Source: Microbacterium sp. ET2
GTDB taxonomy: Bacteria; Actinomycetota; Actinomycetes; Actinomycetales; Microbacteriaceae
Assembly: GCF_030347395.1 (NCBI RefSeq)
Contig: NZ_CP128170.1
Location: 3,100,001-3,164,000 of the forward strand
Direction of reading: 5' to 3'
DNA: 64,000 nucleotides
How positions within the stretch are numbered: the stretch's first letter is position 1; every line of letters starts with the position of its first letter. Below, piece after piece: positions 7,191 through 29,345 of this stretch. The translations under genes and the position numbers were made by a program. The notes under the pieces were generated by a model, which saw only the letters and a list, made by a program, of their open reading frames with translations, was not told the origin of the DNA and did not search any database.

Positions 7191-9021
7191 GTGAGCGCCC
7201 ACCCGAACCCGCGCCGCGTCCGGTGGCGAACGCTCGCGCATCTCGCCACCCACGCGCCGCCGTGGGTGTCGGTGGTGATCGGGGCGGGCGCCCTTCTGCT
7301 GGGCCTCCTCGTCGTCACGCGGCCGCTCACCTCCCTCGTGCTCCTGGCGGTCTACGTCGCCCTGAGCGCCCTGGCCACCGGGATCGCCGAGATCGTCCGC
7401 CCGAGGGAGCCGCGCGGGCTCTCGCGCGTGCTGGCGATCGTCTGGGTGGCGCTCGGTCTCGGCATCCTCCTGGGCCTGCGTGGCGCTCTGCAGATCCTTC
7501 CCGCCGCGATCGCCGTGCTGCTCTTCGTGGGTGGTCTGACCTCCCTCGCCGACGCCCTGATGCGCGGCCGTGCGAGCGAGCGCGTGCTTTCGGCGACCTG
7601 GGGTGCGAGTCAGATCGTCTTCGCCATCCTCTCCGTGACGTGGCCCGACGTCACCGTCCTCGTCGTCGCGGTGGTCTTCGGCGTCCGTACCATCGTCTTC
7701 GGGGCGACCCAGCTGGTGCGCGTCGTCCGTCAGGCGGCGCTGTCCTCCCGTGAGCGCGCGTCCGCGGACGGCGCGGCGCCGGAGTCCCCACGGCTGCGCG
7801 GGTGGCAGGCGGTGGGACGGTACGCCCTCTCGCTGCTCCTGGTGGCGGTCAGCGCCGGCGGCTGGTCGGTGAACGAGTGGTTGCAGGACGGCGCCCCGGT
7901 CGTGGATGCGTTCTACACCCCACCCGAGGTGGTGCCCTATGAGCACGGGCGGCTGATCCGCGCCGACGACTACTCCGGTCGTCTCCCGGCGGGAGGGGAG
8001 GTCACGCGGATCCTGTACACCACGAGGGATGCCGCGGGGCAGCCGGCCGTCGCGAGCGGTCTGGTCATCTCGCCGGTGGATCCGCCGCGGGGTGCGCGGC
8101 CGGTCGTGATGTGGCATCACGGCACGACGGGTGTCGCCCGCGGGTGCGCGCCGAGCCTCCGCGACGACGCCGCCACGCGGTGGGCGATCCCGGCACTGGA
8201 GGACGCCCTGGAGAAGGGGTGGGTGGTCGTCTCGACCGACTACTCGGGGCAGGGTGCCCCCGGTGTCTTCCCGTACCTCATCGGCACCGGCGAGGCGAGG
8301 TCGTCCTTGGACGCGGTTCTTGCCGCGCGCGAGGCTCGACGGGCTGATCCTGTCGAAGCGGACGATGGCCTGGGGGCATTCCCAGGGCGGGCATGCGGCC
8401 CTCTGGGCCGCTCAGATCGCGGACGACTACGCTCCCGACGTGGACGTCCTGGGAGTGGCGGCTCTCGCCCCGGCGGCGGAGCCGGCCGAACTGGCCGAAG
8501 AGCTCATCTCCGGCGAACCGAACGCGCTCCTGGCGATCCTCATCTCCTGGGTCCTCGTGCCGTACTCCGACACCTACGATGACGTCGAGCTCTCCCGGTA
8601 TCTCGCCCCGGGCGCCGCCCCCATCGTCCGCGAGATGACGCAGCGCTGCCCGAGCGAACCGGGGGTGGTCGTCTCGGTCGCGACCGCGCTTGGCGTCTCC
8701 GCCGACAATCCGCTGTACGCCAGCGACCTCACGACGGGTCCCCTCGGGGAGCGTCTGGAGGCCAACGCCGCTTCCGGCCCGTGGGAGGTGCCGGTCCTCT
8801 TGGCGTGGGGGAGCGCCGACGAAGTGATCCCTCCCTCCCTCCAGGAGGACTTCCTCGCACGTTCCTGCGCTGCCGACAACCGCATGCGGACGCTGGTGTA
8901 CGACGATTACGAGCACCTCCAGATCCTGCTGCCCGGATCGCGGTTCCTGCCCGTCCTCGTGCGCTGGAGCGATGAGCGGTTCCAGCTGCGCGAACTCGAT
9001 CGCGACGATTGCGCGCGGTGA
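7191..9021 (+). pseudogene. DUF308 membrane domain-secretory lipase fusion, frameshifted at 8331-8337
   Basis: The start is GTG at 7191, 7 bases after TAGGCT (7178-7183). The N-terminal half holds about seven hydrophobic segments with a DUF308/HdeD-like arrangement. The C-terminal half is an alpha/beta hydrolase of the secretory-lipase (LIP) type with WHHGTTG, TDYSGQG and the nucleophile elbow GHSQGG. The frame breaks at 8331-8337: GAG GCT C replaces an expected GAG CTC, and removing one G restores AARELDGL and reads through to the stop at 9021. The domain order suggests a membrane-anchored lipase or esterase, but the substrate is unknown. The lesion matches four others in the window, so the gene may be intact in the real genome. 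Confidence 0.8.
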
Positions 9022-9114
9022 CCGACCGACACCCGCGGGTGCCCCATCGGGTACCGTAGGAAGGATTCCGGAGCGGCTGGATGCCGGAGAGAGCTGAATA
9101 GAGGAGAGGGCATC

Positions 9115-10104
9115 GTGGATATCGATCTCGGATTGCTGCGCACCATCGAGCGGGAGAAGGAGATCCCCTTCGACGAGCTGCTGCGCATCATCGAGCAGGC
9201 GATCCTGACCGCCTATGCCAAGCACTCCTCGGCCACCGGTGAACTGCCTCAGGGCGCCCGCGCGCAGATCGACCGCAAGACCGGTCACGTGGCGATCTAC
9301 CTGCCTCTCACCGACGAAGAGGGCGCGATCATCGGCGAGGAGGAGACCACTCCCGACGACTTCGGCCGCATCGCCGCCTTCGCCGCGAAGCAGGTCATCA
9401 GTCAGCGCCTGCGCGACATCGCCGACGACGCGGTGCTGGGGGAGTTCCGCGGCAAAGAGGGCGACATCGTCGCGGGCATCGTGCAGCAGGGGCCGAATCC
9501 CCGCATGGTGCACGTCGACCTCGGCACCGTCGAGGCGATCCTTCCTCCCGAGGAGCAGGTTCCCGGTGAGGACTACGCCCACGGGGCGCGCCTGCGCGTC
9601 TACGTCACCTCGGTGTCGAAGGGCACCAAGGGCCCCTCGATCACGGTGTCGCGCACGCACCCGGGTCTGGTCCGCAAGCTGTTCGCCCTCGAGGTGCCCG
9701 AGATCGCCGAGGGGCTGGTCGAGATCGTCTCGCTCGCGCGCGAGGCGGGCCACCGCACGAAGATCGCGGTCAAGGCCATCGATCCGACGGTCAATGCCAA
9801 GGGCGCCTGCATCGGCGAACTCGGTCGACGTGTGCGGGCGGTCACCGAAGAGCTCGGCGGGGAGAAGATCGACATCGTCGATTGGGACGGCGAGCTTGCG
9901 AAGTTCGTCGCGAACGCCCTCTCTCCCGCGAAGGTGACCTCCAGCTTCATCCTCGATTCGAACAGCAAGGCCGTCCGCGCGCTCGTCCCCGACTACCAGC
10001 TGTCGCTGGCCATCGGCAAGGAAGGGCAGAACGCACGTCTCGCGGCGAAGCTGACGGGCGCGAAGATCGACATCCAGCCCGACTCGATCCTGGAAGAGGG
10101 CTGA
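9115..10104 (+). CDS. nusA: Transcription termination/antitermination factor NusA
   Basis: NusA binds RNA polymerase and nascent RNA to modulate pausing, termination and antitermination. The 329-residue protein has the short actinobacterial layout: N-terminal polymerase-binding domain (about 1-130), S1 domain, then two KH domains, the second ending near LAIGKEGQNARLAAKLTG. It lacks the C-terminal acidic repeats of the E. coli protein. GTG at 9115 follows a GAGGAGAGGG ribosome binding site. It heads the nusA-ylxR-infB group. The usual upstream neighbour rimP is absent from this position. Confidence 0.96.
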   Translation: MDIDLGLLRTIEREKEIPFDELLRIIEQAILTAYAKHSSATGELPQGARAQIDRKTGHVAIYLPLTDEEGAIIGEEETTPDDFGRIAAFAAKQVISQRLRDIADDAVLGEFRGKEGDIVAGIVQQGPNPRMVHVDLGTVEAILPPEEQVPGEDYAHGARLRVYVTSVSKGTKGPSITVSRTHPGLVRKLFALEVPEIAEGLVEIVSLAREAGHRTKIAVKAIDPTVNAKGACIGELGRRVRAVTEELGGEKIDIVDWDGELAKFVANALSPAKVTSSFILDSNSKAVRALVPDYQLSLAIGKEGQNARLAAKLTGAKIDIQPDSILEEG

Positions 10105-10138
10105 TCCCGCACCGGGCCGGGGCCCGGCGAGGTGTACC

Positions 10139-10411
10139 ATGGAACCCGTACGAATGTGCGTCGGATGCCGCGCGCGTGCTCCCCGGGCCACTCTTCTGAG
10201 GGTGGTGGCGGTCGATTCGGTTCTCATCCTCGATGAGCGCGCGTCGATGCCGGGGCGGGGCGCGTGGGTACACGACACACAGGAGTGCGTGGAGGCCGCG
10301 GTGCGGCGCCGCGCATTCATTCGCGCATTGCGGGTGTCAGGTGCGCTTGACACGAAAGCCCTCGAGAAACGGCTGAACGGCTATGGAAAAAAAGTGAACG
10401 GCTCGAAATGA
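10139..10411 (+). CDS. ylxR: YlxR/RnpM family RNA-binding protein (DUF448)
   Basis: A 90-residue basic protein with the family hallmarks MCVGCR at the N terminus and GRGAWVH in the middle. In other bacteria YlxR sits between nusA and infB, as here, and has been reported to bind RNase P RNA or influence transcription. Its exact role in this organism is inferred. The start is ATG at 10139, 34 bases after nusA. Confidence 0.9.
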   Translation: MEPVRMCVGCRARAPRATLLRVVAVDSVLILDERASMPGRGAWVHDTQECVEAAVRRRAFIRALRVSGALDTKALEKRLNGYGKKVNGSK

Positions 10412-10436
10412 GACCCGTCCGCGACTAACGGCCTGC

Positions 10437-10460
10437 CCTGTCTGGGTGGGCCCAGACAGG
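10437..10460 (+). promoter_or_regulatory. Hairpin overlapping the infB ribosome binding site
   Basis: CCTGTCTGGG (10437-10446) and CCCAGACAGG (10451-10460) form a perfect 10-bp stem with a TGGG loop. The AGG ending the stem is the first part of the AGGAG Shine-Dalgarno sequence (10458-10462), 5 bases before the infB GTG. In mRNA the stem would partly hide the ribosome binding site. The lack of a U-run argues against a terminator. Confidence 0.65.
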
Positions 10461-10467
10461 AGAATTT

Positions 10468-13254
10468 GTGGCTGCCAAACCACGCGTGCACGAGATCGCT
10501 TCCGAACTCGGCGTCGACAGCAAGGTCGCTCTGGCCAAGCTGAAGGAACTCGGCGAGTTCGTCAAGAGCCCCTCGTCGACCATCGAGCCCCCCGTGGCTC
10601 GCAAGCTCCGCGCTGCTCTGCAGGCGGACGGTGCCCCGACCCCCGCGGCGGGCGACACCAAGACCGCACCCGCCCGCCCCGCGGGTCGACCCGGTCCCTC
10701 ACGTCCCGCGCCCTCGGCCAAGCCGTCGGCACCCGCGCCCGCTGCTCCGGCGGCGACGGCGGCCCCGGCTGCTCCGCAGTCGTCGCCGCGCCCTGCGGCG
10801 CCCGGCGCGCCGGCCCCTGCGGCCGAGCGTCCTGCCGCCGCGGCACCGGAGGCCCCGGCCTCCTCCGCACCCGCGCCTTCCCCGGCGGCACCGACCCCGC
10901 CCGCACCCCGGCCGGGTGGCGGCGCTCCGCGTCCGGGTGCACCGCGTCCGGGCAACAATCCCTTCTCCTCGCAGCAGGGGATGGGGCAGCGCCCCGCCGG
11001 CCCGCGTCCGGGCAACAATCCCTTCTCCTCGCAGCAGGGGATGGGGCAGCGCCCGACCCCCGGTAACATCCCGCGGCCGCAGGCTCCGCGTCCAGGTGCG
11101 CCGCGCCCCGGCGCGCCGCGTCCCGGTGGCGGCGGTCGTCCGGGTGGCGGCGGTCGTCCCGGCGCGCCCTTCCAGCAGCGTCCCGGTGGCGCCGGTCGTC
11201 CCGGCGGTGCCGGTGGCGGCGGGTTCCGCCCCGGTGCTCCCGCCGGCGGCGGCTTCGCCGGTCGCCCAGGTGGCGGCGGTGGCCGCGGTCGCGGCCCCGG
11301 TGGCGGTACCGCCGGTGCCTTCGGCAAGGGCGGCGGAAAGTCCAAGCAGCGCAAGTCGCGTCGGGCGAAGCGGCAGGAATTCGAGATGCGGTCGGCGCCG
11401 GTCGTCGGCGGCATCAACGTCCAGAAGGGCAACGGCGAGATCATCCGCCTGCGCCGCGGCGCGTCGATCTCGGACTTCGCGGACAAGCTCGAGGCGCTGC
11501 GCGGCTACACCGTCCAGCCCGGAACGCTCGTGACCATCCTGTTCAACCTCGGTGAGATGGCGACGGCGACCGAGTCTCTCGACGAAGCCACCTTCGAGGT
11601 GCTCGGCGAGGAGCTGGGCTACAAGATCCAGATGGTCTCGCCCGAGGACGAGGACAAGGAGCTCCTCGAGGGCTTCGGTCTCGACCTCGATGCAGAACTC
11701 GAGGCCGAGAGCGAAGAGGACCTGGAGATCCGTCCCCCGGTCGTGACCGTCATGGGTCACGTCGACCACGGTAAGACGCGACTGCTCGACGCCATCCGTC
11801 AGACCAACGTGGTCGCCGGTGAGGCCGGTGGCATCACCCAGCACATCGGCGCCTACCAGGTGTGGACCGAGCACGACAGCATCGAGCGCGCGATCACCTT
11901 CATCGACACGCCGGGTCACGAGGCCTTCACCGCTATGCGTGCCCGTGGTGCGCAGGTGACCGACCTTGCGATCCTCGTGGTCGCCGCCGACGACGGCATC
12001 ATGCCGCAGACGGTGGAGGCGCTGAACCACGCCCAGGCGGCGAACGTGCCGATCGTGGTCGCGGTGAACAAGATCGACAAGCCCGAGGCGAACCCGGCCA
12101 AGGTCCGCCAGCAGCTGACCGAGTACGGTCTGGTGGCCGAGGAGTACGGCGGCGACGTGATGTTCGTCGACGTGTCGGCGCGCAACAACATCGGCATTCA
12201 GGACCTCCTGGATGCGGTGCTGCTGACCGCCGATGCGGGACTGGACCTCACCGCCAACCCGAACAAGGCCGCCCGCGGTGTCGCCATCGAAGCCAAGCTC
12301 GACAAGGGCCGCGGTTCGGTCGCGACGGTGCTCATCCAGTCCGGAACCCTCCGGGTGGGCGACGCGATCGTGGCGGGCACCGCCTACGGCCGCGTCCGCG
12401 CGATGATCGACGAGAACGGCGAGCCGGTCGAGGAGGCCTACCCCTCGCGACCCGTTCAGGTTCAGGGGCTCAACTCCGTCCCCCGTGCCGGCGACGTCTT
12501 CATCGTCACCGAGGAAGACCGCACGGCCCGGCAGATCGCTGAGAAGCGTGAAGCCGCAGAGCGAAACGCCGCCCTGGCGAAGGCGCGCAAGCGCATCTCG
12601 CTCGAGGACTTCACCCGTGCGCTGGAAGAGGGCAAGGTCGAGTCGCTCAACCTCATCATCAAGGGTGACGTCTCCGGTGCCGTCGAGGCGCTGGAGGAGT
12701 CGCTGCTGAAGATCGAGGTCGACGACAGCGTCCAGTTGCGCATCATCCACCGCGGCGTCGGCGCAATCACCGAGTCGGACATCAACCTGGCCACGATCGA
12801 CAACGCGATCGTGATCGGCTTCAACGTCCGTCCCGACACCAAGGCGCGCGAGCGCGCCGCGCGCGAGGGTGTGGACGTGCGGTTCTACTCGGTCATCTAC
12901 AACGCGATCGACGACGTCGAGCAGTCGCTGACGGGCATGCTCAAGCCGGAGTTCGAAGAGGTCCAGTCGGGTGTGGCCGAGATCCGCGAGGTGTTCCGCT
13001 CCTCGAAGTTCGGCAACATCGCCGGTGTGATCGTCCGCTCCGGCACGATCACGCGCAACGCCAAGGCGCGGGTCATCCGCGACGGCGTCGTGATCGCCGA
13101 TGGGCTCGCCATCGAGTCGCTGCGCCGGTTCAAGGATGACGTCACCGAGGTCCGCACGGACTTCGAGGCCGGTATCGGACTGGGCAAGTACAACGACATC
13201 CAGATCGGCGACGAGATCGAGACAACCGAGATGGTGGAGAAGCCGCGCGGCTGA
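10468..13254 (+). CDS. infB: Translation initiation factor IF-2
   Basis: IF-2 is the GTPase that brings initiator tRNA to the ribosome. The 928-residue protein begins with the IF2_N segment [23 protein letters not shown], continues through a long Pro/Ala/Gly/Arg-rich linker (about 55-290), then a basic stretch and the GTPase domain with GHVDHGKT (G1), DTPGHEA (G3) and NKID (G4), followed by domains II-IV. The start is GTG at 10468 after AGGAG. The linker contains a 20-residue exact tandem duplication. The low-complexity linker is usual for actinobacterial IF-2. Confidence 0.98.
10942..11054 (+). repeat. 60-bp tandem repeat inside infB
   Basis: About 53 identical bases occur at 10942-10994 and again at 11002-11054, with a period of exactly 60 bp, so the reading frame is kept. 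The duplicated peptide contains [17 protein letters not shown]. Perfect identity including wobble positions indicates a recent duplication in the disordered linker. Confidence 0.9.
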
Positions 13255-13267
13255 TCCGCCACGCTGC

Positions 13268-13334
13268 GGCGAGGGATGCCTCATCGACAACGGGAACCCG
13301 CAAGACCCCGACCGTCGACGAGGCATCCCTCGCC
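13268..13334 (+). repeat. Long inverted repeat between infB and rbfA
   Basis: The 21-base arms 13268-13288 and 13314-13334 are complementary at 20 of 21 positions, with a 25-base loop. The stem would be very stable in RNA. No U-tract follows the second arm, so a processing site or mRNA-stability element is as likely as a terminator. Confidence 0.75.
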
Positions 13335-13385
13335 TCCGCTCCCACCGATCATCACCGGGGGAGTGGGGAGAGAAAGAGGAATGAA

Positions 13386-13814
13386 ATGGCTGGGGAACGA
13401 CAGGCTCGACTGGCGGACCGCATCAAGGTGCTGATCGCCGAGCGACTCGAGAAGGGTCTGCGCGACCCCCGGTTGGGGTTCGTCACGATCACCGATGTAA
13501 AGGTGACCGGCGACCTGCAGCACGCCTCGGTGTTCTACACCGTGCTCGGCGACGAGGAAGCTCGCCTGGCCTCCGGTGAGGCCCTGCGCCGGGCCACGGG
13601 CATGCTCCGCAGCGAAGTCGGCCGGGGCCTGGGCGTCCGGCTCACCCCGACCCTGGAGTTCATCCCCGACGCGCTCCCCGAGAACGCGGGCCACATCGAA
13701 GACCTCCTCCGTCAGGCGCGCGAGCGCGACCAGGCGGTGGCGGGACTTGCGTCCTCCGCGAGCTACGCCGGCGAAGCCGACCCCTACGTCAAGCCGCGCG
13801 ACGACGAGGACTGA
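13386..13814 (+). CDS. rbfA: 30S ribosome-binding factor A
   Basis: RbfA binds the 30S precursor and assists maturation of 16S rRNA. The 142-residue protein shows the single-KH-like RbfA fold: RLADRIKVLIAERLEKGLRDPRLGFVTITDVKVTGDLQHASVF-like order, then a C-terminal helix with TPTLEFIPD. ATG at 13386 follows an AGAGGA site. It lies downstream of infB, as in most bacteria, but a long inverted repeat sits between them. The last 31 bases overlap the convergent mutY gene. Confidence 0.94.
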   Translation: MAGERQARLADRIKVLIAERLEKGLRDPRLGFVTITDVKVTGDLQHASVFYTVLGDEEARLASGEALRRATGMLRSEVGRGLGVRLTPTLEFIPDALPENAGHIEDLLRQARERDQAVAGLASSASYAGEADPYVKPRDDED

Positions 13815-14680
13815 CCCCGCACGGGAAGACGCAGCATCCCCGCGGATGCCTCCACGAGGCCATCCGACACGAGCGAGTCGATCGCGCGGTCGCGCTGCAG
13901 GGCGTCCGGCCAGTCCGCGAGCACCGATTCCTGGGGCACGTCGTGCGCGGCGTCCCTCAGCGTCTTCAGCACCGCTCCGCGCGCCTGCCGGTCGCTGCCC
14001 TCGTAACGCGCCTGGCGCCGGCGCACGTCTCCGGTGTCGGGGTGCCCCGCCGTCCGCCACGCGCACATCGCCGACAGCGGACAGTCCGCGCACCGTGGTG
14101 CCCGTGCGGTGCAGACCATCGCACCGAGCTCCATCGCGGCCGCGTTGACGGTCGCGGCCGCGTCGTCATCGGGCGGCAGGATCGCCTCCATCGCCGACAG
14201 GTCACGACGCGCAGGGGGCCCCGGCTGCGAACGACCCGCCACGGCGCGGGCGAGCACCCGACGTGTGTTGGTGTCCACCACGGGGTGACGCCTGCCGTAC
14301 GCGAAGACCGCCACAGCCCGCGCGGTGTAGTCGCCGATCCCGGTCAGCGAAAGGAGCGCATCGACATCCTGCGGCACGACTCCGCCGTGTCGGTCGCGGA
14401 TCTCGGTGGCGGCGCGGTGCAGCCAGAGCGCACGCCGCGGGTACCCGAGGTTCGCCCACTGCCGCACCGCCTCTGCCGGAGGATCGGCGGCGAGGTCTGC
14501 CGGGGCGGGCCAGCGCGCGAGCCACGCCTCCAGATGGGGGATGACGCGGGTCACCGGCGTCTGCTGCAGCATGAACTCCGACACCAGCGTGCCCCAGGCG
14601 GGAAAGCCGGGGCGCCGCCACGGCAGGTCGCGCGCGTTGTCGCGGTACCACGCGATGAGCGGCGTGGCGAGGTCGGGCAT
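13784..14680 (-). CDS. mutY: A/G-specific adenine glycosylase
   Basis: MutY removes adenine mispaired with 8-oxoguanine or G. The 298-residue protein has the LPWR start, FMLQQTPV, the helix-hairpin-helix LTGIGDYTARAVAVFAYG, catalytic Asp in VVDTNTRRVLAR, and the [4Fe-4S] ligands in CTARAPRCADCPLSAMC (C-x6-C-x2-C-x5-C). It lacks a long NUDIX-like C-terminal domain, as in several actinobacterial MutYs. ATG at 14680 lies 7 bases after TAGGCT (14688-14693), a leaderless arrangement. The 3' end overlaps rbfA. Confidence 0.93.
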   Translation of the reverse strand: MPDLATPLIAWYRDNARDLPWRRPGFPAWGTLVSEFMLQQTPVTRVIPHLEAWLARWPAPADLAADPPAEAVRQWANLGYPRRALWLHRAATEIRDRHGGVVPQDVDALLSLTGIGDYTARAVAVFAYGRRHPVVDTNTRRVLARAVAGRSQPGPPARRDLSAMEAILPPDDDAAATVNAAAMELGAMVCTARAPRCADCPLSAMCAWRTAGHPDTGDVRRRQARYEGSDRQARGAVLKTLRDAAHDVPQESVLADWPDALQRDRAIDSLVSDGLVEASAGMLRLPVRGQSSSSRGLT

Positions 14681-14740
14681 GGCGATCAGCCTAGACAGAC
14701 CCGCGCGGTGCGCGGGTCGCGCGGTCGTAGGCTGAGTGCC

Positions 14741-16710: not shown

Positions 16711-17157
16711 ATGATCTCGACCCCCCGCACCCGCATGACCGGCGTCGGCCGCGTCCTCGTCATCGTCTACGGCATCATGGCGCTCGCCGCCACCGGGCGG
16801 TCCTTCGTCCAGATCGTCCGCGAGTTCGACGAGGCGCCGCTGGCCTACTCCCTCTCGGCGCTCGCGGCGGTGGTCTACATCCTCGCCACGCTGGCACTGA
16901 TCTTCTCCGGGTCGCGCACCTGGTACCGCGTCGCCTGGGTCGCGATCTGCTTCGAGCTCGCGGGGGTGCTCATCATCGGCACGCTCAGCTTCGTCCTCCC
17001 CGCCCTGTTCGCCCACCCCACCGTCTGGTCGTGGTTCGGAGCGGGGTATCTGCTGATCCCCCTGGTGCTGCCCTTCCTCGGACTCTGGTGGCTGATCCTG
17101 CACCGGCCCGCCGTTCGCCCGGCTGCGGCGGCCCGCGCCGACGCGGTGGCGCGATGA
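16711..17157 (+). CDS. Four-helix membrane protein of unknown function
   Basis: A 148-residue protein with four hydrophobic helices and a short polar C-terminal tail. ATG at 16711 is preferred because GGAGG lies just upstream; an ATG at 16699 overlaps a TAGGAT -10-like element. Its stop overlaps the ribF ATG (17154), so it is coupled to ribF. It may contribute to flavin-related transport, but nothing in the sequence shows this. Confidence 0.72.
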   Translation: MISTPRTRMTGVGRVLVIVYGIMALAATGRSFVQIVREFDEAPLAYSLSALAAVVYILATLALIFSGSRTWYRVAWVAICFELAGVLIIGTLSFVLPALFAHPTVWSWFGAGYLLIPLVLPFLGLWWLILHRPAVRPAAAARADAVAR

Positions 17158-18132
17158 TCGTCTTCCGCAGCCCGGAGGACATCCCCACCGGCTACGGGCC
17201 CTCCGTCGTCGCCATCGGCAAGTTCGACGGCGTGCACGCCGGTCACCGCGCACTCATCGAGCGGGCCAGGGTCAACGCCGCCACCATGGGCACGCCGGTC
17301 GTCGCGGTGACCTTCGATCGCAATCCGCTCGCGCTCCTGCGTCCCGACCTGTGCCCGGTGAGCCTCGTCGGACCCGACCAGAAGCTCAGGCTGCTGGCGG
17401 AGGCGGGGGTCGATGCCACGCTGATGTTGACGTTCGACCGCGAGCTCGCCGACCTCGAGCCGCGCCGGTTCGTCCAGACGCTCCTGGTCGACGCCCTCGG
17501 GGTTGCGATGCTGCTGGTCGGTCGTGACTTCCGGTTCGGCCGGGGCGGTGCGGGAGACGTGACGCTCCTGGAGGAGGCTCGCGGCCGAGCACGGCTTCTC
17601 CCTCCAGGTCGTCGACGACGTCCGCGCCATCGAGGGTGAGCGTCGTGTGTCGTCGACGTGGATCCGCGAACTCCTCGAAGTCGGCGACGTCGAGACGGCG
17701 GCGAAGCTCCTCGGGCGAGCCCCGTCGGTGCGGGGGGAGGTCGTGCACGGACTCAAGCGGGGGAGGGAGCTCGGCTACCCCACCGCCAACCTGTCCGCGG
17801 ATCGCGAAGGATACGTCCCCGCCGACGGGGTCTACGCCGGCTGGCTCGTGGATGAGGGGGCGATCGCGGCGGGTGCTCCCGAAGGTCCACGCAGCAGCAT
17901 CCGCTATCCCGCCGCCATCAGCATCGGAACCAACCCCACCTTCGACGACGTCACCGGTCGGCAGGTGGAGGCGTACGTCCTCGACGAGACCGATCTCGAC
18001 CTTTACGGTCACCGGGTCGAGGTGCAGTTCAGTCATCGGATCCGGGCCATGGGCGCCTTCGAGGGAATCCCGCAGCTCATCGCGCAGATGGCCGACGACG
18101 TCGACCGTGTGCGTGCGGCGCTGACGGTCTAG
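17154..18132 (+). pseudogene. ribF: Bifunctional riboflavin kinase/FAD synthetase, frameshifted at 17574-17580
   Basis: RibF converts riboflavin to FMN and FMN to FAD. The adenylyltransferase half shows VAIGKFDGVHAGHRALI, VTFDRNPL and GRDFRFGRGGAGD. The kinase half shows SSTWIRELL, GRELGYPTANL and GTNPTF. The frame breaks at 17574-17580 where GAGGCTC replaces GAGCTC. Deleting one G gives LLEELAAEHGFSLQVVDD and a continuous 325-residue protein. RibF is normally essential and I see no second copy here, so real loss is unlikely and an artefact is the first explanation. ATG at 17154 overlaps the preceding stop. Confidence 0.9.
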
Positions 18133-19196: not shown

Positions 19197-20677
19197 ATGA
19201 CCCGCGAGGCTCGACACCACGAAAGAATCCACGTCCTTCCTCGACTACGCCCCGGCGCCCGAGTCCCGGTCGATCCTCACCCTGCAGGACGAGTACGGGC
19301 TCTTCGTCGACGGCGAGTTCCGCCCAGGATCAGGGCCGGCGTTCGACACCGTGTCACCGGCCGACGAGAAGCGCATCGCCACGGTGGCACACGCGGACGA
19401 CGCCGACGTCGACGCCGCCGTCACCGCCGCGCGCCGCGCCTTCGACAAGACCTGGTCGGCCATGTCGGGGCGCGACCGCGGGAAGTATCTCTTCCGCATC
19501 GCCCGCCTCATCCAGGAGCGCGCCCGCGAGCTCGCTGTCGCCGAGAGCCTCGACAACGGCAAGCCCATCAAGGAGAGCCGTGACGTCGACATCCCGCAGG
19601 TCGCCGCGTGGTTCTTCTACTACGCGGGATGGGCGGACAAGCTCGACTACGCCGGCGCCGGCGCGAACCCCCGCCCGCTCGGGGTCGCCGCCCAGGTGAT
19701 CCCGTGGAACTTCCCGCTGCTCATGCTCGCGTGGAAGGTCGCCCCGGCCCTGGCCGCCGGAAACACCGTCGTGCTCAAGCCCGCCGAGACCACCCCGCTG
19801 TCGGCGCTGCTCTTCGCGGAGATCCTGCAGCAGGCCGACCTTCCGCCGGGCGTGGTCAACATCATCACCGGCGCGGGGGCGACGGGGGCGGCGCTCGTGC
19901 GTCATCCCGATGTCGACAAGGTGGCCTTCACCGGTTCGACCGCCGTCGGACGCGAGATCGCCCGCGCTGTGGCCGGCACCCCCAAGAAGCTCACCCTCGA
20001 GCTCGGCGGCAAGGCGGCGAACATCGTCTTCGAGGACGCGCCGATCGATCAGGCCATCGAGGGGATCGTCAACGGGATCTTCTTCAATCAGGGTCACGTC
20101 TGCTGCGCAGGCAGTCGACTGCTCGTGCAGGAGTCCATCCACGACGAGGTCGTCGACCGGCTGAAGGCGCGCCTGTCGACCCTGCGTCTCGGCGACCCGC
20201 TGGACAAGAACACCGACATCGGCGCGATCAACTCCCGGGAGCAGCTGGACCGCATCCGCGAGGCTCAGCCGCATCGGCGAGGAGGAGGGCGCCGAGCGCT
20301 GGAGCGCGGACTGCGTCATCCCCGACAACGGCTTCTGGTTCCCGCCGACGATCTTCACCGGCGTCCAGACCAGCCACCGCATCGCGCGTGACGAGATCTT
20401 CGGGCCGGTGCTGTCGGTGCTGACCTTCCGCACCCCTGCGGAGGCCATCGAGAAGGCCAACAACACCCCTTACGGTCTCTCGGCCGGCATCTGGAGCGAC
20501 AAGGGGTCGCGCATCCTCGCCGTCGCGGATCGCCTGCGCGCGGGTGTCGTGTGGACCAATACCTTCAACCGCTTCGACCCGTCGAGCCCGTTCGGCGGCT
20601 ACAAGGAATCCGGTTACGGACGCGAAGGCGGCCGCCACGGGCTGCTGGCGTATCTGAAGAGCACCGCGAACAGCTGA
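19197..20677 (+). pseudogene. NAD(P)-dependent aldehyde dehydrogenase, two frameshifts (19206-19212 and 20260-20266)
   Basis: The corrected product is a full-length aldehyde dehydrogenase of about 493 residues, with NFPLLMLAWK, FTGSTAVG, the catalytic Glu in LELGGK and catalytic Cys in GHVCCAGSRL. Two single-base lesions break it, and both change GAGCTC to GAGGCTC. At 19206 the corrected start reads MTRELDTTKESTSF; at 20260 it reads RIRELSRIGEEEGAERW. ATG at 19197 follows GAGGAGA. It lies directly after deoC and before a cysteine-less partner gene. This looks like the catalytic half of a split ALDH16-type pair that could oxidise acetaldehyde from DeoC. Confidence 0.87.
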
Positions 20678-20688
20678 GGACCGAGGAC

Positions 20689-21552: not shown

Positions 21553-21564
21553 CGTCCGCCCGCC

Positions 21565-22947
21565 TCACCTGACCTCCGCCGGGCTGTCATTCGCTGCCGG
21601 ATTGCGGATCCCGAGCCACGACACCGCCCCGCCGATGGCGAGGAACACCGCGGTCACGATCGCGGCGCGGTGGAAGCCGTCGAGATCGAGCGAGCCACCC
21701 ACGATGGTGCCGAGGGCGGCGATCACCAGCAGACCCGCGACGCGGGCGACGGCGTTGTTCACCGCCGAGGCGATCCCGGAGCGTGAGCTGTCGATCGCGC
21801 CGAGGATGGCGGAGGTGAGGGGGGAGACGGTCGCGGCGAGCCCCACACCGAAGATCACGACGCTGGGAAGCACCTGCCACCAGTAGTCGAAGTCCTCCGA
21901 GACGGTCAGGAGCAGAAGGGCGCCCACGGCCATCAGCAGTGGTCCGACCGTCATGAACAGGCGCGGGCCGATCCTGCCGGCGAGCGCACCGATGCGCGAG
22001 CTCAGCACGATGAGCAGCACGGTGCTCGGGAGCATCGCCAACCCCGCAAGGGTCGCGGGGAGCCCGGCGCCCTGCTGCAGATACACCCCGACCACGAAGC
22101 CGTTCAACGACAGCGCGCCGTAGATGAAGGCGGTGGCGATGTTGCCGGTCCAGAAGTTGCGGACGCGGAAGAGCCCGAGCGGCATCATGGGACTTCGCGC
22201 CACGCGCTGTCGCACGAGGAACCCGGCGAAGGAGAGGATGCCGACGACCAGCGTCGTCCAGATGAGGGGTGAGGACCACCCGAGGTTCGGCTGCTCGATG
22301 AGGGCGAACACCACCCCGCCGAGCCCGACGGCGCACATCACCGCGCCCGCCCAGTCGACGCTGCGAGTGGGGTCGCGCTTCTCGGCCAGGCCCATCTGCG
22401 GAAGGAGGAAGAGCGTGACCGCGATGGGGAGGACGTTGATCAGGAAGGCCAGGCGCCAGGACAGCAGATCGACGAAGACACCGCCCAGGAGAGGGCCGAC
22501 GAGCATCGCCGCCGTCGTCGCGCCTGTCCACGTTCCGATGGCACGCGCCTGCGCGGGACCGCGGAAGGTCGCAGTGATGAGGGCGAGCGAGCTGGGCACG
22601 AGCAGGGCACCGGCGACCCCCTGGAGCCCGCGCGCGACGATGAGGAACTCCGCCGTGGGAGCCGCGGCGATCGCGACGGAGGTCACTCCGAACCCGATGA
22701 GTCCCCACACCAGCACCACGACCCGGCCGAACACGTCGCTGAGGGAACCCGCGACGAGGATGAGCGCACCGAGCGTGATGAGGTACGCATCCACCACCCA
22801 CTGCTGGGTGGCGAGTCCTCCGCCGAGCTCTTCGGCGATGGCGGGAAGGGCGACCGTGACCACGGTGCTGTCGAGGAAGGCCACGAACGACGCGAGGATG
22901 GCGACGAGGAGAACGACACGCTCGCGTGTCGCCGGCTGATCGGTCAC
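21565..22947 (-). CDS. MFS transporter, DHA2-type drug exporter
   Basis: A 460-residue membrane protein with roughly twelve to fourteen helices. FLDSTVVTVALPAI near the N terminus and the motif A-like GSLSDVFGRV place it in the DHA2 (EmrB/QacA) group of proton-driven exporters. The substrate cannot be read from the sequence. GTG at 22947 lies 6 bases after TAGGGT (22954-22959), a leaderless promoter. It converges with the aldehyde dehydrogenase genes, with only 12 bases between stops. Confidence 0.9.
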   Translation of the reverse strand: MTDQPATRERVVLLVAILASFVAFLDSTVVTVALPAIAEELGGGLATQQWVVDAYLITLGALILVAGSLSDVFGRVVVLVWGLIGFGVTSVAIAAAPTAEFLIVARGLQGVAGALLVPSSLALITATFRGPAQARAIGTWTGATTAAMLVGPLLGGVFVDLLSWRLAFLINVLPIAVTLFLLPQMGLAEKRDPTRSVDWAGAVMCAVGLGGVVFALIEQPNLGWSSPLIWTTLVVGILSFAGFLVRQRVARSPMMPLGLFRVRNFWTGNIATAFIYGALSLNGFVVGVYLQQGAGLPATLAGLAMLPSTVLLIVLSSRIGALAGRIGPRLFMTVGPLLMAVGALLLLTVSEDFDYWWQVLPSVVIFGVGLAATVSPLTSAILGAIDSSRSGIASAVNNAVARVAGLLVIAALGTIVGGSLDLDGFHRAAIVTAVFLAIGGAVSWLGIRNPAANDSPAEVR

Positions 22948-23001
22948 GCGCTCACCCTACTCCCGCGGGTATCGTCGAGATCCGACGGGGAAGGGGCACC
23001 C

Positions 23002-23649
23002 ATGATGAACATCCGACGCGCAGTCGTCACCGCCGCGGGCGCGGCGATGGTGCTCGCCGCGATATCCGGGTGCGTTCCCGAGCCCGGTTCGACGCCGTCG
23101 CCGTCCGCGTCGATCTCGAGCCCGACCCCGTCGGGTGCCGCCACGCCGGTGTCGCCGGCGCCCACCCCGTCGCCGATCGAGACCATGCTGCCCGACACGC
23201 TGCAGCTGCCCGAGCGGTGCGAGGACATCTACTCGGCGGGGATGCTCGAGTCCCTCAACCAGCAGAATCCACCCTTGAACGACCCCGGCGTGACGATGTA
23301 CTCCACCGAGAACGCCGTCGGGCTGGAGATCCTCGCCGCAGGACCTGCGTCGATCCGCTGCTCATGGGGCACTCCGAGCGAGTCGGGGCTCGCGACCACC
23401 GTCACGGTGATCGACGCGACGCAGGCGGCGGCGCTGCGCACCGGCCTGCTGGAGTCGGGCTTCGGCTGCGAGGACGGGCTGGGCGGGACCGTCTGCCGGA
23501 TCGAGCAGCGCGGTGTCTCGCTCGACGACGTACCCTACCTTCGGGGCGAGACCCACGTCGTGCGCGACAACGGCTGGGTGGCCACCGCCTACATCAATTT
23601 CACCCCCGAGGGGTACAGCGAGGACATCGTCCAGACGCTCTGGGGGTGA
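23002..23649 (+). CDS. Putative lipoprotein
   Basis: A 215-residue exported protein. It has a basic start (MNIRR), a hydrophobic segment and a lipobox AISGC placing the lipidated cysteine near residue 24. A Pro/Ser/Thr-rich spacer follows, then a compact domain with four further cysteines that could form two disulfides. I recognise no family. The second ATG (23005) is an equally good start, and GGGGAAGGGG precedes both. It is divergent from the MFS gene, so a link between them is possible but unsupported. Confidence 0.75.
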   Translation: MMNIRRAVVTAAGAAMVLAAISGCVPEPGSTPSPSASISSPTPSGAATPVSPAPTPSPIETMLPDTLQLPERCEDIYSAGMLESLNQQNPPLNDPGVTMYSTENAVGLEILAAGPASIRCSWGTPSESGLATTVTVIDATQAAALRTGLLESGFGCEDGLGGTVCRIEQRGVSLDDVPYLRGETHVVRDNGWVATAYINFTPEGYSEDIVQTLWG

Positions 23650-23701
23650 CCCGACGCGCCGCACGGCGTGCCCGGAGTGGGCGCGCGGCCCGCCGGCGCG
23701 C

Positions 23702-23880
23702 TAGAATCGGTGTCGGAGATCTCACCGGCGTCGCCGCAGCTCGCTGAAGCGAGAGCCCGCAGCCGCCCGGCCGAGGACTCCGACCCGCGTCGTGACGGAT
23801 CGCCGCCCGCGGACCCCGTCGCTCTCACCGTCCCGCCGGACACCCGCCGGTCTTCACCGGCACTCACGCTCAGGAGGAGC
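23702..23880 (+). promoter_or_regulatory. Promoter and long 5' leader of the SNF2 helicase gene
   Basis: TAGAAT at 23702-23707 is a good -10 element, predicting a leader of about 165 bases, unusually long here. It contains a small hairpin, CTCGC-TGAA-GCGAG, and ends in AGGAGG before the ATG at 23881. An in-frame GTG at 23710 would give an Arg/Pro-rich extension with no recognisable domain, so I treat the stretch as leader. Confidence 0.4.
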
Positions 23881-26064
23881 ATGCCGACCACGGCACCCGC
23901 CCAGGATTCGCGCTCACGCTCGGCGTCGGGCCGCAGAAGGTCGTCGTCGCGCCGTGACGACGACGCTCCCGTCATCCCGATCCTCGCCCGTAAGGTGCGC
24001 GAGGTCGAAGCCAAAGCCCAGCGCGGCAAGCTCGGACCCACCAATCGCGTCAAGTTCCAGGTGATCGCATTCCTCGTCCGCGAGGAGCGGGCCCGGGTCA
24101 AGGCCGACACCGAGATCACCGACGCCACCCGCTCGGAGCTGCTGAAGCGACTCGACGGTGTCGCGACGATCCTCGCCAAGACGGCCGCACGCGACACCTC
24201 GCTGATCCAGCTGCTCGAAGTCGATCAGGCCACCTCTCCGGTCGCCCGCCGCATGCGTCGCGACTGGCTGCTGGAGTCCGGTGCCGAGCTGCCGCCGGAC
24301 GAGCTGATCATCACCGACAGCGCTCCCGCACCCGCGCAGGTCGTGCCCGCGGCGCTCGCCGAGCGCCAGGTAGTGCCTGCGACCGTCGAAGCCCGCCAGA
24401 TGGCGAACCCGTTCCTCGCGCCGGATCTGTCGCGCCTGGCACCCAAGGAGAACATCCGCCGCCGCCTCGACGGCTGGGGGCTCATGGGTCCGCTGTACAA
24501 GGCCTTCGAGACAGGGGCCGGCGGCGGAGCGGCATCCATGGATCTTCCCCCCGTCCCCGAGTTCGACCGTCTCTCGCCCAAGGGGCTGGACGTCATGCCG
24601 CACCAGTCGCGCTTCCTCGAGGCGGTGCGTCAGGGGCACCGGTCGTTCCTCCTGGCCGACGAGCCGGGCCTCGGCAAGACCGCCGAGTCGGTGCTCGCCG
24701 CCTCGGTCGCCGACGCCTATCCGCTGCTCGCGGTCGTCCCGAACGTGGTGAAGATGAACTGGGCACGCGAGGTCGCGCGCTGGACACCGCAGCGCCGAGC
24801 GACCGTCATCCACGGCGACGGCGAGGCGATGGACGCCTTCGCCGATGTGTTCATCGTCAACTACGAGATCCTCGACCGGCACCTGTCGTGGCTCAGCTCG
24901 ATCGGGCTGAAAGGCATGGTCGTCGACGAGGCCCACTTCATCAAGAACCTCACCTCGCTCCGCTCGCAGAACGTCCTCGCGCTGGCGGGCCGCATCCGCG
25001 AGCAGGTGCGCGATCCCCTCATGCTGGCCCTCACCGGAACGCCGCTGATCAACGACGTCGAGGACTTCGACGCCATCTGGCGCTTCCTCGGCTGGACCAA
25101 CGGCGAGAAGCCGGGGCCGGAGCTGATGGAGAAGCTCGACGAGTCGGGGCTCACACCGGCCGACAAGGCGTTCTACCCCGCCGCCCGCGAAGCGGTCATC
25201 TCGATGGGGATCGTCCGGCGCCTGAAGACGGATGTCGCGGCCGACCTCCCCGACAAGCTCATCGCCGACCTTCCCGTCGAGCTCGATGACGAATTCGGTC
25301 GATCGATCCGCCAGGCCGAGCGCGAGCTCGGCGAGCGCCTCGCCGCGCGCTATCGCCGGATCATCGAGGCCCGCGGCACCGCCCGCCAGGGTCAGGCGAA
25401 CCTGCACCTGCCCGGAGAGCTCGACGACGACATCGTGCGCCTGGTCGCCCAGAACGAGCTCGATGAGTCCAAGGCGCAGGGGACCGGGGCCGAGAACGTC
25501 TTCACCATGGTGCGTCGCATCGGTCAGGCAAAGGCCCATCTCGCCGCCGATTATGCGGTGCAGCTGCAACGGTCGGTGGGCAAGGTGGTGTTCTTCGCCA
25601 AGCACATCGACGTCATGGACGCCGCCGAGGCGCACTTCCGTGCGTCGGGGCTGCGGTCGGTGTCGCTGCGCGGAGACCAGACCTCCACCGCACGCCAGGA
25701 GGCCATCGACGCGTTCAACAACGACCCGGAGGTCGGGGTCGCGGTGTGTTCGCTGACGGCCGCAGGAGTCGGTGTCAACATGCAGGCGGCCTCCAACGTC
25801 GTGCTGGCGGAGCTGTCGTGGACGGCCGCCGAGCAGACGCAGGCCATCGACCGGGTGCACCGCATCGGTCAGGCGGAGCCCGTGACCGCGTGGCGCATCA
25901 TCGCCGCCCACACGATCGACACCAAGATCGCCGAGCTGATCGACTCCAAGCAGGGGCTCGCCCAGCGTGCCCTCGACGGCATCGCGGTGGACCCCGAGTC
26001 CAGCGACTCGGTGCAGCTGTCCGCGCTCATGCACCTCACCCGGCGAGCGCTGGGCGAGGTCTGA
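23881..26064 (+). CDS. SNF2-family DEAD/DEAH-box helicase (SMARCAL1-like)
   Basis: A 727-residue ATPase. A basic N terminus is followed by about 230 residues of unassigned sequence, then the helicase core: LADEPGLGKTAES (motif I), VVDEAHFIKN (motif II, DEAH), LTGTPLIND (motif III). The second RecA domain includes SLTAAGVGVNMQAA (motif V) and QAIDRVHRIGQ (motif VI). Such proteins translocate on double-stranded DNA to remodel protein-DNA or annealed structures. A genome-maintenance role is inferred. ATG at 23881 has the only strong Shine-Dalgarno. No restriction or defence genes lie beside it. Confidence 0.9.
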   Translation: MPTTAPAQDSRSRSASGRRRSSSRRDDDAPVIPILARKVREVEAKAQRGKLGPTNRVKFQVIAFLVREERARVKADTEITDATRSELLKRLDGVATILAKTAARDTSLIQLLEVDQATSPVARRMRRDWLLESGAELPPDELIITDSAPAPAQVVPAALAERQVVPATVEARQMANPFLAPDLSRLAPKENIRRRLDGWGLMGPLYKAFETGAGGGAASMDLPPVPEFDRLSPKGLDVMPHQSRFLEAVRQGHRSFLLADEPGLGKTAESVLAASVADAYPLLAVVPNVVKMNWAREVARWTPQRRATVIHGDGEAMDAFADVFIVNYEILDRHLSWLSSIGLKGMVVDEAHFIKNLTSLRSQNVLALAGRIREQVRDPLMLALTGTPLINDVEDFDAIWRFLGWTNGEKPGPELMEKLDESGLTPADKAFYPAAREAVISMGIVRRLKTDVAADLPDKLIADLPVELDDEFGRSIRQAERELGERLAARYRRIIEARGTARQGQANLHLPGELDDDIVRLVAQNELDESKAQGTGAENVFTMVRRIGQAKAHLAADYAVQLQRSVGKVVFFAKHIDVMDAAEAHFRASGLRSVSLRGDQTSTARQEAIDAFNNDPEVGVAVCSLTAAGVGVNMQAASNVVLAELSWTAAEQTQAIDRVHRIGQAEPVTAWRIIAAHTIDTKIAELIDSKQGLAQRALDGIAVDPESSDSVQLSALMHLTRRALGEV

Positions 26065-26109
26065 TCCGCGCGGGGCGCACCGGGTTGGTGTGCCCCCGGC
26101 ATCCGGCAG

Positions 26110-26154
26110 TACTCTCGGGGTGAGGCAGCGTCGCCGATAGCCCCACCCCGAGAG
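26110..26154. promoter_or_regulatory. pfkA promoter region with an 11-bp inverted repeat
   Basis: CTCTCGGGGTG (26112-26122) and CACCCCGAGAG (26144-26154) are perfect inverted arms. The first overlaps a TACTCT -10 candidate (26110-26115). Symmetry over the core promoter suggests an operator; an RNA hairpin is less likely because transcription would begin inside the first arm. Confidence 0.4.
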
Positions 26155-26168
26155 CACCGAGGACACAC

Positions 26169-27197
26169 ATGAAGATCGGCATCCTGACCAGCGGCGGCGA
26201 CTGCCCCGGCCTGAACGCCGTCATCCGCGGCGTCGTGCTGAAGGGCACGACGAACTACAACCTCGAGTTCGTCGGCATCCGAGACGGCTGGCGCGGCGTG
26301 GTGGATGCGGACTTCTTCCCCCTCACCCGCCACGAAGTGAAGGGCCTGTCGAAGGTCGGCGGAACGATCCTCGGCACCAGCCGCACCAACCCGTACGAGG
26401 GGTCGCGCGGGGGAGCGGACAACATCGCCAAAACCCTCTACGGTCATCGCATCGACGGGATCATCGCGATCGGCGGGGAGGGGACCCTCGCCGCCGCCGA
26501 CCGCCTGTCGAAGGACGGCATCAACGTCATCGGGGTCCCGAAGACCATCGACAACGACCTGCGCGCCACGGACTACTCGTTCGGCTTCGACACCGCCGTC
26601 AACATCGCCTCGGAGGCGATGGACCGCCTCCGCACCACGGGCGATTCCCATCAGCGCTGCATGGTCGCCGAGGTCATGGGGCGCCACGTCGGGTGGATCG
26701 CGCTGCACGCCGGGATCGCCGCAGGGGCGCACGCGATTCTCATCCCCGAGGTGCCGCTGACGATCGACGACATCTGCGAGCTGGTGACCAAGGCGCACGA
26801 CCGTGGCCGCGCGCCGCTGGTCGTCGTCTCGGAGGGCTTCAAGCTCAAGGGCATGGACGAGGCGTTCAGCGACAAGGGTCTGGACGCCTTCAACCGTCCG
26901 CGCCTGGGCGGGATCAGCGAGGTGCTCGCCCCCGAGATCGAGCGCATCACGGGGATCGAGACTCGCGCCACGGTGCTCGGGCACATCCAACGGGGCGGCT
27001 CGCCCTCGGGCTTCGACCGGGTGCTCGCCACGCGCCTGGGGCTCCACACCGCCGACGCGGTGGTGGACGCGGAGTGGGGCAAGATGGTGGCGCTTCGCGG
27101 CACCGACATCGTGCGGGTGCCGTTCGCCGAGGCGCTGGGAGAGCTCAACACCGTCCCCCGCTACCGCTACGACGAGGCCGCCGCGCTCTTCGGCTGA
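26169..27197 (+). CDS. pfkA: 6-phosphofructokinase
   Basis: PfkA phosphorylates fructose 6-phosphate at C1 in glycolysis. The 342-residue protein shows TSGGDCPGLNA, GGTILGTSR, the catalytic PKTIDND, and VAEVMGRHVGWIA. At the phosphoryl-donor site it has GGEGT (Gly at the position of E. coli Gly104) together with Lys in PKTIDND. Known actinobacterial ATP-dependent enzymes share this mixed pattern, whereas PPi enzymes have Asp plus Lys. I therefore favour ATP, not certain from sequence. ATG at 26169 follows GAGGACA. Confidence 0.94.
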   Translation: MKIGILTSGGDCPGLNAVIRGVVLKGTTNYNLEFVGIRDGWRGVVDADFFPLTRHEVKGLSKVGGTILGTSRTNPYEGSRGGADNIAKTLYGHRIDGIIAIGGEGTLAAADRLSKDGINVIGVPKTIDNDLRATDYSFGFDTAVNIASEAMDRLRTTGDSHQRCMVAEVMGRHVGWIALHAGIAAGAHAILIPEVPLTIDDICELVTKAHDRGRAPLVVVSEGFKLKGMDEAFSDKGLDAFNRPRLGGISEVLAPEIERITGIETRATVLGHIQRGGSPSGFDRVLATRLGLHTADAVVDAEWGKMVALRGTDIVRVPFAEALGELNTVPRYRYDEAAALFG

Positions 27198-27229
27198 GCA
27201 GGCCGGGACGGGCAGTCGTGCCCCCCGGG

Positions 27230-29345
27230 TCAGTCCGCGACGCCGAGCACGTCCAACAGCCACGCGAGCTCGAAGGCCCGCTCCCGCCACGCGTTGTACC
27301 GGCCCGAGACGCCGCCGTGACCGGCGACCATCTCGCACTTCAGCAACGCGTCGGCGCCGACCTCTCGCAGCCGCGCGACCCACTTCGCCGGCTCGACGTA
27401 GAGCACCCGGGTGTCGTTGAGCGAGGTCACCGCGAGAACACGGGGATAGCGCACGCCCTCCCGCACGTTCTCGTAGGGGGTGTACGACTTCATGTAGGCG
27501 TAGACGTCGGCATCGTGAAGCGGGTCTCCCCATTCGTCCCACTCGATGACGGTCAACGGCAGCGACGGATCGAGGATCGTCGTCAGCGCATCGACGAACG
27601 GCACGTCCGCGAGGATCCCGGCGAAGCTCTCGGGTGCGAGATTCGCCACCGCGCCCATGAGTAGTCCGCCGGCGCTTCCGCCCTCGGCCACGATCCGGTC
27701 GGGGGTGGTGTAGCCGTTCTCGATGAGATGGTGTGCTGCGGCGACGAAGTCGGTGAAGGTGTTGCGCTTGGCCAGGAGCTTCCCGTCCTCGTACCACTGC
27801 CGACCCATCTCCCCGCCCCCGCGCACGTGGGCGACGGCGAAGACCACGCCGCGATCGAGCTCCGACAGGCGCGGCACCGAGAATCCGGGCTCGATGGAGT
27901 GCTCGTACGAGCCGTAGCCGTAAAGGTGCACAGGGCGCGGCGCCGCGCCGGGCTCGCCGAATGACTTCTTCCACACCAGCGACACCGGCACCTCCGTGCC
28001 GTCGCCGGCGCGGGCCCAGACGCGCGCCTGCCCGTACTCGGCCGGATCGTAGCCGCCGAGGACCGGCTGGCGCTTGCGCAGGATGAGGGCGCCGGTGGCG
28101 ATCTCGTAGTCGAACACGGTGCCGGGGGTGACGAACGAGCCGTACGACAGCCGCAGCATCGGCGGAGCCCACTCGGGGTTCCCGCCGGTGCCCACCGAGT
28201 ACAGAGGCTCGTCGAATTCGATCTCCGTCACCGCCGACGTGGCGTAGTCGAGCATCCCGAGTCGTGCCAGGCCCTCCCGGCGGTAGCCGATCACACCCCA
28301 GTCGCGGAAGGTGGAAAGACCGAGCAGGCGGATGCCGGCGCGATGGGGGATGACGCTGCGGCGGGGGCCCTGCGGGTCGGCCGCGGATACGCGGACGAGC
28401 CTCGAAGTCGAGCGCGCCGTCGTTGTGGAGGATGTACAGCGTGTCTTCGCCGTCGACGACGGCGTGCGAGACGTCGTATTCCACGCCCTCGTGGCGGGGC
28501 CAGATCACCCGCGGCTCGGATCTCAGATCGGTGGCGTCGACGAGCCACTCCTCGGAGGTGATCGACGAGCCCAGGCTGATGACGAGGTAGCGGTCGCTGC
28601 GCGTGAATCCGGCGCCCACCCAATACCGCTCATCGGGCTCGTGGAAGAGCTTGGCGTCGTCGGCGACCGGTGTGCCGAGCTCGTGGAGCCATACGGTGTC
28701 GGGGCGCCAGGCGTCATCGACCGTGGTGTAGACGATGAACCGGCCGTCGGGGGAGAAGCTCGCCCCGGCGAAGGTGCCGGGGATCTCGTCCGGGAGCTGA
28801 CGGCCGGTCACGAGGTCCCGGACGCGGATCGTGTACCGCTCGTCGCCGGCGACATCGACGCCGAACAGCATGCGCGAGCCGTCGGTCGAGACGTCGAAGC
28901 TGCCGAGGGAGAAGAAATCCTGGCCGTCGGCCTCGACGTTGCTGTCGAGCAGTACCTGCTCACCGGGTACCTCGGCATCCGGCGAGAGCAGCGGCGGGGT
29001 CCAATCGTCGGGCGACGCCAGGGGAGCGCGGCACTGGATGCCGTACTGCTTCCCCGCGACGGTCCGGCCGTAGTACCACCACTCGCCGTGGCGGCTGGGG
29101 ACGGAGAGGTCGGTCTCCAGGGTGCGGGACCTGATCTCCTCGAACACCCGCTCCCGCAGGGCCACCAGGTGTGCGGTGCGCGCCGCGGTATAGGCGTTCT
29201 CGGCCTCCAGATGTGCGATGACCGCCGGATCCTCCTTGGCCCGGAGCCACTCGTAGGCGTCTTCGACGTCGTCGCCATGATGGCTCCGCACGATCGGCGT
29301 GCGTGCGGCGACGGGGGGTGTGGGGGATGCGGCGGCGGTGGTCAC
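27230..29345 (-). pseudogene. ptrB: Oligopeptidase B (S9A prolyl oligopeptidase family), frameshifted at 28397-28403
   Basis: The corrected product is about 704 residues: a beta-propeller domain, then an alpha/beta hydrolase domain with the nucleophile segment EGGSAGGLLMG, and the catalytic His in GHGGVSGRYN. It cleaves short peptides after basic residues in the cytoplasm. The frame breaks at 28397-28403, where the minus strand reads GAGGCTC. Removing one G gives DFELVRVSAADPQGP and continues into the C-terminal domain. The start is GTG at 29345, 6 bases after TAGCGT (29352-29357). The lesion is identical to four others in this window. Confidence 0.87.

Follow-up and report, generated by a model that had tools for sequence, protein, structure and literature searches.

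Why should several genes of one bacterium be broken by the same small insertion at the same short sequence? The question is raised by a stretch of 64,000 nucleotides of Microbacterium sp. ET2 (bases 3,100,001-3,164,000 of contig NZ_CP128170.1, the single contig of a genome of 3,604,840 bases), here called the window, with a GC content of 0.70. In the window, four genes lose their reading frame at five sites, all of which read GAGGCTC on the coding strand and differ by one extra base from the hexamer GAGCTC. The analysis described below indicates that the five frame breaks are very probably consensus errors of the assembly and that the genes are intact in the cell. In particular, this reading is supported by the fact that the errors occur genome-wide in the sample analysed, are confined to one motif and one kind of change, and hit indispensable genes present in a single copy. 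On the same grounds, the proposal of a systematic base-calling error, put forward in the first-pass annotation of the window, is upheld, while the link to a modified base that it had suggested is plausible. The frame breaks and the genes that carry them are listed here with the evidence for each break (HMM, call of a hidden Markov model of coding sequence; relatives, comparison with related genomes; otherwise, protein family profiles).

8331..8337, + strand: GAGGCTC frame break in a secretory-lipase (LIP) gene (HMM; LIP profile in two frames)
8196..9021, + strand: lipase-domain part of the gene broken at 8331
17574..17580, + strand: GAGGCTC frame break in ribF, for FAD synthetase/riboflavin kinase (HMM; relatives; FAD_syn and Flavokinase in different frames)
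17031..18132, + strand: ribF, read in two frames
19206..19212, + strand: GAGGCTC frame break a few codons past the likely ATG start of an aldehyde dehydrogenase gene (HMM)
20260..20266, + strand: second GAGGCTC frame break in the same aldehyde dehydrogenase gene (relatives; Aldedh profile in two frames)
19197..20677, + strand: aldehyde dehydrogenase gene with two frame breaks, its start inferred from sequence
28397..28403, - strand: GAGGCTC (coding strand) frame break in a prolyl-oligopeptidase (S9) gene (relatives; Peptidase_S9_N in two frames)
27230..29354, - strand: S9 peptidase gene, read in two frames, its outer limits being those of the open frames

All five sites were found where the first-pass annotation had placed them, and the three GAGCTC copies that it had cited as undamaged (8500-8505, 8587-8592 and 19528-19533) are indeed intact. 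In each of the five heptamers, a frameshift-aware HMM that is blind to the motif called a frame change of the insertion type. The + strand of the window holds 53 GAGCTC, 9 GAGGCTC and 8 GAGCCTC, and among these 17 heptamers the filtered frame-change calls coincide only with the five sites named. Protein family profiles continue from one frame to another across the breaks. Specifically, the Peptidase_S9_N match of the S9 gene covers profile positions 2-300 and resumes at 303-412 in another frame, the Aldedh match at 20260 covers 5-321 and resumes at 343-458 in another frame, and in ribF the FAD_syn match is followed by the Flavokinase match in a different frame. In the lipase gene, a weak LIP match upstream of the break (19-67, below the cut-off) is followed downstream by 71-279 in another frame. 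Homologues of the aldehyde dehydrogenase are 476-557 residues long in 117 of the 120 matches listed. The five motif sites account for five of the seven filtered calls in the window. The two others lack the motif: one lies at 29437 (- strand) and one at 43173 (- strand), and the latter is probably a false call, as a complete acyltransferase domain lies upstream of the call position.

The break sites were also compared with relatives. Of the 80 named loci closest to the S9 peptidase piece, the first 59 carry a Microbacterium label in 57 cases. Considering together the three window sites that could be aligned, exactly one gap falls inside the heptamer in 84 of 85 relative loci: 69 of 69 at 28397, 11 of 12 at 20260 and four of four at 17574, with one genome (G013) counted twice at each of the last two sites. 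Within 8 nucleotides, 66-67 of the 69 loci at 28397 and 12 of 12 at 20260 differ in length by a net one base; at 17574 this is so in only one of four, a second gap being present nearby in the other three. The comparison did not extend to 19206, where the N-termini of the relatives are too diverged to align, nor to 8331, for which no relative was fetched. These alignments bear on the idea that the extra base is real and that ribosomes shift frame at GAGGCTC, GAGCCTC or GAGCCTG in a programmed or tolerated manner. Such a mechanism would let indispensable genes carry the extra base; the relatives, however, do without it (69 of 69 and 11 of 12 loci), and most copies of the same heptamers show no filtered frame-change call, as for example 86 of 99 GAGGCTC. 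Ribosomal frameshifting is thus hardly credible and was rejected.

The same model was applied to a larger sample, consisting of 60 spaced stretches of 20 kb plus the window (1.264 Mb, or 35% of the genome). The model describes codon usage with allowed frame changes and was trained on this genome; a call was kept if the old frame stays open for more than 24 nucleotides downstream, a filter that removes gene overlaps but some real breaks too. Out of 610 raw calls, 497 were dropped in this way and 113 were kept, namely 64 insertions and 49 deletions. A heptamer of the motif family lies within 12 nucleotides of 35 of the 64 insertions. Counted per occurrence on the coding strand, insertion calls fall on GAGGCTC in 13 of 99 cases, on GAGCCTC in 12 of 161 and on GAGCCTG in 8 of 126, with a chance expectation of 0.1-0.2 for each of these main heptamers (P=1e-23 for GAGGCTC). 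The minor forms contribute little (CAGGCTC 1/86, CAGCCTC 1/110, GAGGCTG 0/67) and the other NAG(G/C)CTN forms nothing. Two corrections to the first-pass annotation follow from these counts. The uniform GAGGCTC reading on the coding strand, which it had observed, holds in the window and is a local accident, since the sample contains 13 GAGGCTC and 12 GAGCCTC lesions; and the affected motif is GAGCTC, as it had stated, together with GAGCTG.

The sample also shows how specific the pattern is. Apart from words overlapping the motif, no other word is comparably enriched among the insertion calls of the 35% scan, and the 49 deletion calls hold no word of comparable strength; CTTGTAT tops one enrichment list only because its coding tally is zero. 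No calls were made in the same scan at heptamers derived from CAGCTG, AAGCT or GAGCTT. The first-pass annotation had named frameshifts spread over many unrelated motifs as the finding that would overturn the pattern; on this 35% of the genome, the pattern withstood that check. A longer recognition sequence was sought in the 8 flanking bases on each side of the 25 GAGCTC lesions, and none of the 16 positions deviated at P<0.05. Outside the window the lesions are evenly spread, with no clustering (P=0.42); the five lesions of the window compare with 1.6 expected (P=0.024), an excess to which no weight is given because the window was picked for them. Ordinary pseudogene decay, hitting the same heptamer five times by chance, has in its favour that motif-free frameshift-like calls do occur, at about 50-60 per Mb, here as in control genomes. 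Against it stand the 35 of 64 insertion calls at a single motif family and the presence, among the broken genes, of housekeeping genes in which a coding signal is seen before and after the break. Decay of this kind is exceedingly improbable and was likewise rejected.

The controls were five other single-contig genomes of the genus Microbacterium, of which 780 kb were scanned (G013, 400 kb, with its own model; G004, G007 and G008, 100 kb each, and G015, 80 kb, with the model of the present genome). These genomes, which may come from other sequencing platforms, gave no motif insertion against 12.8 expected (P=2e-6), although they hold 531 GAGCTC sites and yielded 37 filtered calls. Non-motif calls amount to 61.7 per Mb here and 47.4 per Mb in the controls, a difference that is not significant (P=0.21). 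As the non-motif rates are similar and motif insertions occur only here, the clear excess is that of the motif. In other words, among the six genomes scanned the extra base at GAGCT(C/G) belongs to this assembly only. As to the accuracy of the scan, 210 of 300 insertions simulated at coding GAGCTC sites were recovered and 300 unmodified sites produced one false call. The model also gives false calls in low-GC islands, for example in a methyltransferase gene discussed below, whose frame is open through 507 residues.

The identity of the broken genes is informative in its own right. Copy number was checked for ribF and purF. The ribF gene, which is indispensable, provides the sole FAD_syn match of the genome; purF is represented by two matches meeting at the lesion and one partial match elsewhere, all three below the family cut-off. 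Outside the window, a profile scan of 30 pieces from 29 of 30 lesions left 8 pieces without a family match. The best-matching families of the broken pieces include phosphoglycerate dehydrogenase (serA), phosphate acetyltransferase and error-prone DNA polymerase, and further pieces match maltose alpha-D-glucosyltransferase, NhaA, purF, the LigD polymerase domain, a FabG1-like reductase and aconitase; several of these matches are below cut-off, as expected for pieces. A gene at genome position 2650306 (- strand) contains a complete LigD-polymerase domain and shows the same kind of break downstream of it. As the only ribF and the only purF are both hit, the DNA of the cell very probably does not carry these lesions.

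This last point weighs on the other origin suggested by the first-pass annotation, according to which the lesions are real scars of blunt nuclease cuts at GAGCTC, rejoined by Ku/LigD with the gain of one base. Several ingredients are at hand: GAGCTC is a palindrome, a Ku gene is present and open, and a gene with a LigD-polymerase domain exists. Lesions of this kind should, however, spare indispensable single-copy genes, whereas ribF and purF are hit. Varied junctions would also be expected, but no A/T insertion was called at the motif (GAGACTC, GAGTCTC, GAGACTG and GAGTCTG together drew a single deletion call and no call of an insertion) and no comparable deletion motif was seen. In addition, GAGCTG is hit too, and on one assembly strand only, and the genome has no member of the RE_SacI family. 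Cutting followed by end joining was therefore rejected as very improbable.

If the lesions are consensus errors, the distribution of their forms may be related to the way in which reads vote. On the + strand of the assembly the lesions read GAGCCTC in 14 cases, GAGGCTC in 11, GAGCCTG in 9 and CAGCCTC in one. Reads of the strand carrying GAGCT would tend to gain one C, and the consensus would then read GAGCCTC, or GAGGCTC when the error comes from the other strand. GAGCTC would draw wrong votes from both strands and GAGCTG from one strand only. With a modified base on GAGCT(C/G), failure would be expected more often at GAGCTC than at GAGCTG, and the failures observed are 25 of about 1,040 sites for the former and 9 of about 1,430 for the latter. 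As only about 3% of GAGCTC sites are wrong, the error would seem to lie close to the threshold of the vote. A further asymmetry concerns GAGCTG, whose nine lesions are all on the + strand, while GAGCTG itself is split 703:724 between the strands (P=0.002, or 0.004 two-sided, for a pattern noticed after the fact). These nine lesions lie between 77 kb and 2.41 Mb and so extend over more than half of the chromosome. Provided that the chromosome is circular, with origin and terminus (neither of them located) roughly opposite, an effect of the replication strand would have to switch within this span, and it does not; the link with the orientation of the contig suggests an origin in the consensus step.

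What triggers the error is less certain. The balance tips towards a modified base at GAGCT(C/G), with a 5-methylcytosine (m5C) methyltransferase encoded at 539873-541393 as the best candidate source. A systematic error without any modified base, in which the k-mer GAGCT(C/G) is handled wrongly by the base-caller or polisher whatever the DNA, would require no enzyme and would accommodate GAGCTG besides GAGCTC. This alternative is considered unlikely, though far less so than those rejected above: no such error was seen in 780 kb of the five other genomes (with the reservation that their platforms may differ), and it is at odds with the silence of the CAGCTG-, AAGCT- and GAGCTT-derived heptamers.

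The modified-base explanation directs attention to the methyltransferase genes of this organism, and the search for a GAGCTC methylase or restriction gene and for Ku/LigD, advised by the first-pass annotation, returned Ku, a LigD-polymerase domain and a candidate methyltransferase, but no nuclease of the SacI family. One cytosine-5 methyltransferase of family PF00145 is present in the genome, on the minus strand at the position given above. Its homologues (E<=1e-40) occur in 2 of 119 genomes of the genus, this one included, and in none of the five controls. The gene and its neighbours have a GC content of 0.59-0.63, compared with 0.70 in the window, and a gene with a GmrSD_N domain adjoins it; the stretch comprising the two is a possible restriction-modification island. 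As the responsible enzyme, the m5C methyltransferase should be taken as a lead. The frame on its other side is read as a putative transposase, and nearby, at 545157-547646 (+ strand), lies the gene of a large protein that contains an NB-ARC domain, matches TPR and cold-shock domains weakly and may be a defence protein. With regard to the other families searched, PF02384 and PF07669 have no match in the genome, while a PF01555 methyltransferase (1177411-1178235) was rejected as a private cause, being present in 16 of 16 relatives of the genus, with the five controls free of the error. The RE_SacI endonuclease (PF09566) is absent here and was found in one of 149 genomes of the genus (G067), where the nuclease gene is preceded by a frame of 423 residues resembling a cytosine-5 methyltransferase.

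Consensus errors linked to a motif are a phenomenon of known kind. In Listeria, nanopore errors concern the five-base motif GCAGC in four strains with the mza methyltransferase and GCTGG in another (PMC10687267). Similarly to the present case, short-motif errors fall there in conserved genome positions; they differ in being mismatches, removed by whole-genome amplification, instead of one-base insertions seen in the assembly only. In one Listeria lineage the errors concentrate on the pentamer of M.BatI (PMC10687267), a cytosine-5 methyltransferase whose targets are GCWGC, on both strands, and GCSGC, on one strand (PMC8936443). The pattern described here resembles that of M.BatI, in that a palindrome would be affected on both strands and a sequence differing from it by one letter on one strand; the motif is different and the specificity would here be deduced from the errors. 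A cytosine within GAGCTC, or within a motif that includes it, can be methylated, as reported for GRGCYC in Propionibacterium freudenreichii (PMC11649196) and for GAGCTC in marine viral genomes (PMC9516812). GRGCYC would add GGGCCC and GAGCCC and exclude GAGCTG, whereas here it is GAGCT(C/G) that stands out. Furthermore, nanopore-only assemblies show errors at or near methylated bases, mostly substitutions (208 of 311 mismatches) in PMC12506013, and only specific occurrences of a methylated motif are miscalled in PMC12392509, as in this assembly. Searches of the literature, in which most of the papers listed were left unopened, found no published sequence error at GAGCT(C/G), and the parts of PMC11649196, PMC9516812 and PMC6449724 that were available describe none at GAGCTC.

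A number of observations weigh against the interpretation as assembly error caused by a modified base. The artefact is deduced from the assembled sequence. Relatives were comparable for 9 of the 35 lesions, and the majority of them are net one base shorter in five and not in four, of which one is unalignable, one is diverged and two have further gaps. GAGCTC is not depleted, occurring at about 0.80 per kb here and at 0.62-0.96 in the controls, and no detailed mechanism can be offered for the + strand bias at GAGCTG. One false HMM call fell on a natural GAGCCTC inside an open gene. The specificity proposed for the methyltransferase is derived from the errors, and the protein shares only 28% identity over 204 aligned residues with the frame beside the SacI-type nuclease of G067. 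In addition, the nanopore papers cited mostly describe substitutions and, in the part of PMC12392509 available, methylated bases are stated to be mostly error-free (accounting for 42, or 6.5%, of the differences).

If the lesions are errors of the assembly, the genome would contain roughly 100-150 false frame breaks, as estimated from 25-35 calls in 35% of the genome and a sensitivity of about 70%, measured for coding GAGCTC only. Consequently, the pseudogene list, the metabolic predictions and the derived protein entries would be wrong for central genes such as ribF, purF and aconitase. More generally, errors tied to a motif can be picked up in a finished bacterial genome, with nothing but its sequence, by a frameshift scan that is blind to the motif. 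A more tentative reading, possible but somewhat less probable than not in our view, is that the errors are the footprint of a new methylation specificity, GAGCTS, with GAGCTC modified on both strands and GAGCTG on one, conferred by a rare island-borne m5C methyltransferase adjoining a GmrSD-type restriction gene. If confirmed, a published consensus without signal data would reveal both the motif and the strand pattern of a modification, and public assemblies could become a source of new modification motifs through the same kind of scan.

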